DNA from: Blattabacterium cuenoti
Lineage (GTDB): Bacteria > Bacteroidota > Bacteroidia > Flavobacteriales > Blattabacteriaceae
Assembly (NCBI RefSeq): GCF_014251815.1
Contig: NZ_CP059202.1
Location: forward strand, 62,001 to 126,000
Direction: 5' to 3'
DNA: 64,000 nucleotides
Below the pieces are notes generated by a model that saw only the letters and a list, made by a program, of their open reading frames with translations, was not told the DNA's origin and ran no database searches. The number at the start of each line of letters is the position of its first letter. Within the stretch, counting starts at the first letter, position 1. A program made the position numbers and the translations under genes. Shown here piece after piece: positions 43,838 to 46,005 of the stretch.

Positions 43838-44131
43838 ATGACAAAAGCAGATATAATAACAGAAATCATATCAGAGACTGGATCTGAGAGAGTTGATACG
43901 CAGAAGGTGATAGAAACATTTATGAAAAAAATAAAACAAAGTTTAACGTCGGGGGAAAATGTTTATTTAAGAGGATTCGGATCATTTATTATTAAATATC
44001 GAGCGAAAAAACTGGGACGTCATATATCCAAAGATATGTCTATTGTAATTCCTGCGCATAATATACCGGCATTTAAACCTGCAAAATCTTTTACAGAACT
44101 AGTGAAAAAAAATGTTCCTATAAAGAAATAA
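43838..44131 (+). CDS. HU/IHF-family DNA-binding protein
   Basis: The 97-residue protein has the HU fold: TKADIITEIISETGSERVDTQKVIETFMKKIK, the GENVYLRGFGSFIIKYRAKKLGR beta region with arms, and the AHNIPAFKPAKSFTELVK C-terminus, including the conserved proline that intercalates in DNA. It compacts and bends DNA. Sequence does not decide between HU and IHF naming. Confidence 0.95.
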   Translation: MTKADIITEIISETGSERVDTQKVIETFMKKIKQSLTSGENVYLRGFGSFIIKYRAKKLGRHISKDMSIVIPAHNIPAFKPAKSFTELVKKNVPIKK

Positions 44132-44177
44132 ATAAAAACGGGAATATAATGAATCAAAAAATTACTAAATAAAAATT

Positions 44178-44267
44178 ATGCCAAACGGAAAAAAAAGAAA
44201 AAGACGTAAGATAGCAACTCATAAAAGAAAAAAAAGAAATAGGAAAAATAGGCATAAAAAGAAATAA
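44178..44267 (+). CDS. 29-residue highly basic peptide, possible small ribosomal protein
   Basis: An ATG at 44178 opens a 29-codon frame ending in TAA. The product begins MPNGKKRKRR and ends NRKNRHKKK; about two thirds of its residues are Lys, Arg or His. Its spacing of basic residues around a His-Lys (ATHKRKKR) resembles the mycobacterial bS22 and mitochondrial mS38 (COX24/AURKAIP1) tail. It lies between HU and rng in the same direction with an A-rich upstream. I believe equivalent tiny genes occur elsewhere in Bacteroidota but cannot check. The ribosomal role is inference. Confidence 0.7.
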   Translation: MPNGKKRKRRKIATHKRKKRNRKNRHKKK

Positions 44268-44332
44268 TAATTTTTTTTCAAAAAAATTAATCTATTGTAA
44301 TTTCTACAAACTTTTTTTCCTTGTTTTTGTGT

Positions 44333-45889
44333 ATGAATAAAGAATTAATTATAAATGCAGAAGAACAAAAAGTTAAAATAGCTCTTTTAGAAGAAGGAAA
44401 ATTATTAGAGCTTCATAGAGATGTTTTTAATAAAGAATTCTCTGTAGGAGATATTTATTTGGGTGTCGTTAAAAAAATTCTGCATGGATTAAATGCTGCT
44501 ATTATAGATATAGGGCATTCAAAAGGAGGTTTTTTGCATTATGATGATATTGGATTTCAAACTCATAAAATATTAGATTTGATATCAAATAATCATACAA
44601 AAAAAAAAGAAAAAAAATTGGTTTTGAATAATTTAAAAAACCAAGAAAATAAAAATTCTATATGTCATATATTGCATATTGGACAGAAAATATTAGTTCA
44701 AATTTCTAAAGAACCTATTTCTAATAAAGGACTAAAACTTACTACAAAAATTTGTATTCCAGGGAGAAATATAATACTCATCCCTTTCTCAGAAAAAATT
44801 TCTATATCCAAAAAAATAAAAGACATAAAAGAAATAAATAGATTGATTTCTTACATAAAAAAAATAACCCCAAATTCATTTGGGATTATTATTCGTACAG
44901 CTGCTAATAACGAAAGAGAAGAGGTTTTGAATGAAGAACTGATTTTTTTAGTAAAAAAATGGAAAAAAACATCAAATAATTTAATGAAACTCCCCCCCCC
45001 AGTTCGGGTGTTAAATGAAAGTAGTAAAACTTATTGTTTATTAAGAGATATATTCAATGATGATTTTAAATCTATTTGTTGTAATAACAATTTTATATGC
45101 CAAGAAATTCATTCATATTTATCTTTAATTTCTCCAAAAAAAACTAACATAATTAGATATTACAAAGGTAATATACCCATATTTGAAAAATATGGTATAG
45201 AAAAACAAATACAAATTTTTTTAGGAAAAAATGTTCCTCTTGAAAATGGAGCTTATCTTATTATAGAGCACACTGAAGCTTTACATGTTATAGATGTTAA
45301 TAGTGGGATGATCAATCATATGATGAAAAATTGCACGGAATCAGAAAGAATGAATAACATATTAAAAATAAATTTGTTAGCAGCAACGGAAATAGCTAGA
45401 CAATTAAGATTGAGAGATATGGGGGGTATTATCGTAGTGGATTTTATAGATATGTCTGATTCTATACAAAAAAAACAACTATATGAACATTTAAAAGAAA
45501 AGATGAAAAACGATAGAGCAAAACATCAAATATTACCACCCAATAAATTTGGGTTAGTTCAGTTTACTCGTCATAGGGTAAGACCTGAATTAAAAAAAAT
45601 GAATATAAATAATAAACATTCCAAAAATTCTCCTGAAAATTATATTTATCACTTAGAATTTGTTATAGAATCTATTATAAAAAATAAAAATCATAAAAAA
45701 ATACAATTACATATTCATTCTTTTGTTTCGGCTTATTTAAAAAAAGGATTTCCTTCTATTCAACAAAAATGGTTGTTGAAATATAAAAAATGGATTCGAA
45801 TAATTCCAAGAGATTCATTCGAATACACAGAATATAAAATTCTGAATAAAAATCGTGAAATTGTATCATCTTCTTTTTCTTTTCATTAA
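44333..45889 (+). CDS. rng: Ribonuclease G/E family endoribonuclease
   Basis: The 518-residue protein has an S1-like domain (GDIYLGVVKKILHGLNAAIIDIGHSKGGFLHYDDI), then the RNase E/G catalytic core with VIDVNSGM and GGIIVVDFIDM aspartates. The C-terminal scaffold of RNase E is missing, so it is the RNase G form. The zinc-link CPxCxG is not seen. The ATG at 44333 gives the family's usual start; an earlier TTG is less likely. Nine Cs in a row (44992-45000) encode Pro-Pro-Pro. Confidence 0.94.
   Translation: MNKELIINAEEQKVKIALLEEGKLLELHRDVFNKEFSVGDIYLGVVKKILHGLNAAIIDIGHSKGGFLHYDDIGFQTHKILDLISNNHTKKKEKKLVLNNLKNQENKNSICHILHIGQKILVQISKEPISNKGLKLTTKICIPGRNIILIPFSEKISISKKIKDIKEINRLISYIKKITPNSFGIIIRTAANNEREEVLNEELIFLVKKWKKTSNNLMKLPPPVRVLNESSKTYCLLRDIFNDDFKSICCNNNFICQEIHSYLSLISPKKTNIIRYYKGNIPIFEKYGIEKQIQIFLGKNVPLENGAYLIIEHTEALHVIDVNSGMINHMMKNCTESERMNNILKINLLAATEIARQLRLRDMGGIIVVDFIDMSDSIQKKQLYEHLKEKMKNDRAKHQILPPNKFGLVQFTRHRVRPELKKMNINNKHSKNSPENYIYHLEFVIESIIKNKNHKKIQLHIHSFVSAYLKKGFPSIQQKWLLKYKKWIRIIPRDSFEYTEYKILNKNREIVSSSFSFH
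44863..44890. repeat. Near-perfect inverted repeat inside rng
   Basis: AATAACCCCAAAT and ATTTGGGATTATT are inverted with a two-base centre; 12 of 13 positions pair. It lies in codons for TPNSFGIII. Comparable to the longer palindromes in actA and fumC. Confidence 0.7.
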
Positions 45890-45914: not shown

Positions 45915-45997
45915 GTGGGCGTGGTGGAACAGGTATACACGTCAGAATTAGGATCTGATGCCTATTAGGCGTAAGGGTTCGAATCCCTTCGCCCACA
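45915..45997 (+). tRNA. tRNA-Leu (anticodon TAG)
   Basis: An 83-base class II tRNA: acceptor GTGGGCG with CGCCCAC, D stem GTG/CAC, anticodon stem TCAGA/TCTGA with loop ATTAGGA, variable arm TGCCTATTAGGCGT and T arm AAGGG-TTCGAAT-CCCTT. Discriminator A fits leucine. CCA is not encoded. It decodes CUA and probably other CUN codons by wobble. Confidence 0.96.
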
Positions 45998-46005
45998 CTA
46001 TACAC

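Follow-up and report, generated by a model that had tools for sequence, protein, structure and literature searches.

A 29-codon gene between HU and rng in Blattabacterium cuenoti probably encodes the small ribosomal protein bS22

A short open reading frame (ORF) of the Blattabacterium cuenoti genome, lying between the genes for an HU-family DNA-binding protein and an RNase E/G family protein (rng), very probably encodes the small 30S-subunit protein bS22, a reading to which we assign, from sequence comparison, a probability of about 0.95. Its coding frame is strongly constrained, its peptide resembles ribosomal chains from end to end, and the gene is retained in relatives where neither neighbour is matched. 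It lies in the window, by which we mean the whole 64,000-nucleotide stretch analysed (NZ_CP059202.1, positions 62,001 to 126,000), in a shrunken, symbiont-type genome of 624 kb, with the following features:

43838..44131, + strand: HU-family DNA-binding protein, 97 aa (PF00216, E 2.4e-23), the upstream neighbour
44168..44177, + strand: start context of the putative bS22 gene, A/T-only
44178..44267, + strand: putative bS22 gene, ATG start, 29 codons, TAA stop; peptide MPNGKKRKRRKIATHKRKKRNRKNRHKKK
44333..45889, + strand, from its ATG: RNase E/G family gene, rng (PF10150, E 1.3e-86), the downstream neighbour
45915..45998, + strand: tRNA-Leu (anticodon TAG), after rng

The three protein genes share one strand, with 46 bases between the HU stop codon and the start of the ORF and 201 bases between HU and rng, for which a TTG at 44321 is an alternative possible start. 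The coordinates and the Pfam matches of the neighbours confirm the initial annotation, which had described a basic mini-gene of 29 codons at this site, about two thirds of it Lys, Arg and His. These three residues make up 20 of the 29 (0.69; Lys and Arg alone, 18/29), with 0.44 as the next-highest fraction among the 504 window ORFs of 20-60 aa, this ORF counted. As a control covering the window, first-order Markov simulation of its sequence was repeated 40 times and gave ORFs of 25-60 aa with fractions up to 0.48 and never as high as 0.65. No Shine-Dalgarno-like motif was seen in the start context (44168-44177), and position -3 is A, as in 60 of the 73 genomes compared. A promoter scan was uninformative, since shuffled versions carried 16.7 promoter-like sites on average and the actual sequence 14, and none of the three terminator-like sites found lies on the + strand between HU and rng.

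A PDB sequence search with the 29-aa peptide (E up to 10) returned three distinct chains, all matched end-to-end: 7jil_5 (E 2.4e-8), one sequence found in five PDB entries under the name S22 or L38, which we take to be Flavobacterium johnsoniae bS22; 9i5v_10 (E 3e-8), named as an AURKAIP1/COX24 domain-containing protein; and 8fmw_V (E 1.6e-6 over 28 residues), named bS22 and presumably that of Borrelia burgdorferi. With two of the three chains named S22 or bS22, the resemblance to bS22 proposed in the initial annotation held. A profile of 16 aligned rows, two of them identical, recovered the same three chains at E 9.9e-15, 1.1e-13 and 1.1e-12 and none beyond them at E up to 10, which is no independent test because all three were rows of the profile. 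At E up to 10 the 29-mer matched nothing in Pfam, COX24_C (PF08213) included, and 0 NCBIfam families. Across the 16 rows, the Borrelia chain among them, K6, K8, K11, T14, H15, R17, K18, K19, R25, H26 and K27 are invariant, and over 73 loci H26 is replaced once, by Q, with the other ten core residues unchanged. Length and basicity also fit bS22, for which the passages on this protein in PMC10618245 and PMC10085706 give about 28-33 residues with Lys and Arg above half. The peptide thus appears, on present comparisons, to be a bS22 of the Bacteroidota/spirochaete type, a family already known. The chains identical to 7jil_5 have been deposited under two names, '30S ribosomal protein S22' and '50S ribosomal protein L38'; bL38 is described in PMC10618245, in the part concerned, as a separate 50S protein near uL6 and uL14.

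Every one of the 60 relatives gave a match (E up to 10), partial in G003 and G058 and covering 28-29 residues in the remaining 58. Identity at the order level was 83-90% in 18 of 23 matches and 68-79% in the remaining five. In a phylum sample 376 of 395 genomes matched at E up to 1; among those of high quality (at least 90% complete, at most 5% contaminated) the count was 358/371, with 13/371 giving no match. Within the family, at any completeness, 63 of 68 genomes matched at E up to 10, including G003, G459 and G461 with partial or shifted copies, and in genus g192, with genomes of ~0.2 Mb, six of nine did. The frame is stop-free in 37/37 genus genomes examined, a subset of 49 that leaves aside G003 (truncated), G459 and G461 (shifted) and nine others, all of which match at the protein level over 29 residues without a stop. 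Neither a lack of conservation nor stop codons within the frame in relatives, which the initial annotation had named as the observations that would speak against it, was therefore seen.

Selection was gauged in 37 genus genomes, namely the window's own and 36 relatives, with G003 and 11 others, including G459 and G461, omitted. They hold 35 distinct DNA versions of the gene and nine protein versions, with a mean amino-acid identity of 97.3% compared to 90.4% for HU, and pS is 0.40 versus a pN of 0.020 (uncorrected). Broken down by codon position (first, second and third), the differences per site are 0.021, 0.021 and 0.215 for bS22, and 0.080, 0.038 and 0.238 for HU. All these figures are pairwise means over related sequences rather than independent events, and omission of the two shifted copies (G459 and G461) tilts them slightly in favour. 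The bS22 stretch is selected as protein, and more strictly than HU.

A-rich intergenic DNA yields many Lys codons and might give rise to such an ORF by chance, but its composition is reached by none of the window's 503 other short ORFs and in none of the 40 simulations, and the order-level identities given above would not be expected of a chance frame; we rejected this reading, whose probability is practically nil, on the K/R/H composition and on conservation in relatives and across the phylum. Alternatively, the conserved stretch could be an RNA element (a small RNA, or else an rng leader or attenuator) with an incidental ORF, and the short 201-base gap could house a leader. Its variation falls mostly at third codon positions (0.215 versus 0.021), and Rfam, at E up to 1, lists a PreQ1 element (E 0.68, sub-gathering score) and nothing else, and that match is located inside rng. 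The RNA element was rejected on these two results, and the persistence of the stretch in genomes with no RNase E/G match also tells against it, so that we hold it to be extremely improbable. An antisense ORF (44154-44255, - strand) was considered as a gene as well and set aside: its in-register frame is stop-free in 37/37 genomes, but this is a consequence of the codons of the sense strand and does not speak for a gene.

The peptide might instead be a basic DNA- or RNA-binding partner of HU or RNase G acting outside the ribosome, since all order-level loci with a full bS22 copy (22/22) have HU on its upstream side and rng on its downstream side. This count was scored by side within the ~2 kb fetched, not by strict adjacency, as HU distance varies; for G058, with its truncated copy, the HU side was set from the position of the peptide match. 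Over the 60 loci examined the HU query matches 60, with HU on the upstream side, and the rng query 53, the seven without rng comprising six from the genus and the short contig of G058, and from HU stop to bS22 ATG there are 4 to 133 bases across the genus set. Of 49 whole genus genomes, 41 gave RNase E/G in a profile search, and the remaining eight (G001, G007, G019, G023, G024, G025, G028 and G453; loci L004, L012, L015, L018, L026, L037, L038 and L082), which seem to do without RNase E/G, all keep bS22 at 93-100% identity with tRNA-Leu downstream; in G007 an rng remnant is recognisable by sequence (L012). In four family genomes of ~0.3 Mb (G464, G465, G467 and G468) a search at E up to 0.001 gave neither an HU-family nor an RNase E/G match, yet bS22 is kept there at 86-90% identity and tRNA-Leu follows it closely. 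Two of these genomes, G467 and G468, consist of one contig each, while G464 and G465 are in several, where a gap could hide a moved gene. As it is kept without HU and rng, the gene is retained for itself, and its retention is independent of both. Similar chains are, moreover, modelled in ribosomes, and a partnership with HU or RNase G is therefore very unlikely compared to a role as bS22.

Two genomes of the same family, G472 (183 kb) and G474 (189 kb), gave no copy by protein search, by inspection of 20 kb each or by a pattern scan, whose hits were near control level. Eleven of the 19 unmatched phylum genomes were followed up (seven from family f50 and four from genus g104, all among the 13 of high quality), and RNase E/G was present in 11/11, with no bS22-like ORF in the surrounding locus; two ORFs there reach 0.43 K/R/H (L097 and L106) and are unlike bS22, and the other nine loci all stay below 0.42. 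The f50 genomes without a match are G202, G250, G254, G364, G383, G399 and G443 (7/19). This f50 cluster points to lineage-wide loss or strong divergence, and any of the 19 genomes may hold a strongly diverged copy. Given G472, G474 and the 13/371 high-quality genomes without a match, bS22 seems dispensable in some ribosomes. The important role that the initial annotation had proposed has to be tempered by the few lineages that show no copy.

Disturbed frames form a separate group. The window's copy contains two runs of eight A, so that frame shifts or sequencing errors are to be expected there; differences in A-run length shift the frame in G459 (L063) and G461 (L064) of the same genus, and the frame of G479 is likewise shifted at an A-run, by either sequencing error or true slippage. 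In G471, bS22 is at its usual site but broken by a 118-A run (L085:2409-2526), and in G478 a run of 111 T (A on the coding strand; L083:2044-2154) ends the contig just upstream of rng, so that presence of bS22 is not scorable; these long runs are either real expansions or assembly artefacts. The genomes of G471 and G478 are of ~0.2-0.3 Mb, and locus L075 holds a 71-A run elsewhere. In G003 the frame meets N at L033:2110, which is read as an assembly join because the 5' part of rng is missing as well, and in G058 the match lies at a contig edge.

As bS22, the peptide would form a basic bent helix buried among 16S rRNA helices h2, h27, h44 and h45 and touch 23S rRNA (H67/H68) at the subunit interface; it could stiffen upper h44 beside the decoding centre and contribute an extra bridge between the subunits. 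The passages on bS22 in PMC10618245 and PMC10085706 describe such pocket and bridge contacts for the Borrelia and Cutibacterium proteins, with the Flavobacterium protein superposed. The Borrelia protein occupies a pocket of h2, h27, h44 and h45, the same one that holds bS22 in the ribosomes of mycobacteria and Bacteroidetes, and contacts H68 (PMC10618245, same passages), and the Cutibacterium protein is placed at h27, h44 and h45 with an additional contact to H67 (PMC10085706, likewise). By homology, we infer that in B. cuenoti the peptide is produced, occupies this pocket and influences translation through the contact. A more speculative thought, and one we consider rather doubtful, is that bS22 compensates for absent Shine-Dalgarno pairing: in lineages that initiate without it (Bacteroidota, mitochondria and actinobacteria rich in leaderless mRNAs), the decoding region would be held by a basic helix lying against h44/h45. 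If true, this would explain why bS22 is retained in ~0.3 Mb genomes without an HU or RNase G match, and the few lineages without bS22 should show some other 30S adjustment. A related idea has already been voiced for mS38 and mycobacterial bS22 in the part of PMC6582356 that deals with them.

A peptide so short can drop below gene-calling limits, and Pfam and NCBIfam are both silent on it; being short and unrecognised by either, bS22 may be omitted from minimal-ribosome counts. Our search of the open-licence literature on Blattabacterium, Sulcia and reduced genomes found no paper naming a bS22 gene in endosymbionts, and the main text of PMC9976891 contains none of the terms bS22, bL38, S22 and COX24. 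Retention without the neighbours, together with apparent absence in a few genomes, provides natural cases for probing the role of bS22.

Among known systems, the presumed F. johnsoniae chain (7jil_5) comes close to the window peptide, with 24 of 29 residues identical by eye and order-level relatives that share HU upstream and rng downstream; it differs in having 30 residues and at positions 3, 10, 12, 21 and 23. The Borrelia chain (8fmw_V) is likewise basic, has 28 residues and shares the THKRKK and RKNRHKK blocks; its naming is in line with PMC10618245, whose account of bS22 gives GUG as its start, in contrast to the ATG of the window gene. Actinobacterial bS22 (Mycobacterium, Cutibacterium) is, in the published accounts as far as they concern this protein, a basic helix in the h27/h44/h45 pocket, as is the Flavobacterium type; that of Cutibacterium acnes has 33 aa, compared to 29 here, and is 37% identical to that of F. 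johnsoniae (PMC10085706), and the Mycobacterium smegmatis protein is treated in part of PMC6133939.

The initial annotation had also likened the peptide to mycobacterial bS22 and to the C-terminal part of mS38. The likeness to mS38 agrees with the structural literature, PMC10618245 calling bS22 analogous to mS38 and eL41 in its discussion of the pocket, but our sequence comparisons fall short of establishing it: one of the 16 alignment rows reaches the COX24_C profile (E 0.26), and, judged by names, no mycobacterial, actinobacterial or mS38 chain is among the three PDB profile matches at E up to 10. At the sequence level the link to mS38 is accordingly weak, and sequence by itself does not firmly tie the peptide to mS38 or to mycobacterial bS22, the link being a structural one taken from those papers. 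The C-terminal part of mS38/COX24/AURKAIP1 is a Lys/Arg-rich bent helix running along h44 at the subunit interface, in a much longer protein (111 aa in yeast) that is reported to be required there to stabilise h44, to form the bridge and to initiate on COX1-3 mRNAs, and a convergent origin has been suggested for eL41 and mS38 (PMC6582356, in the portion on mS38). eL41 lies in the corresponding small-subunit pocket, as a single unbent helix of 24 aa (PMC10618245, in the same discussion). What our analysis adds to the known bS22 family is the retention of the gene without either of its neighbours.
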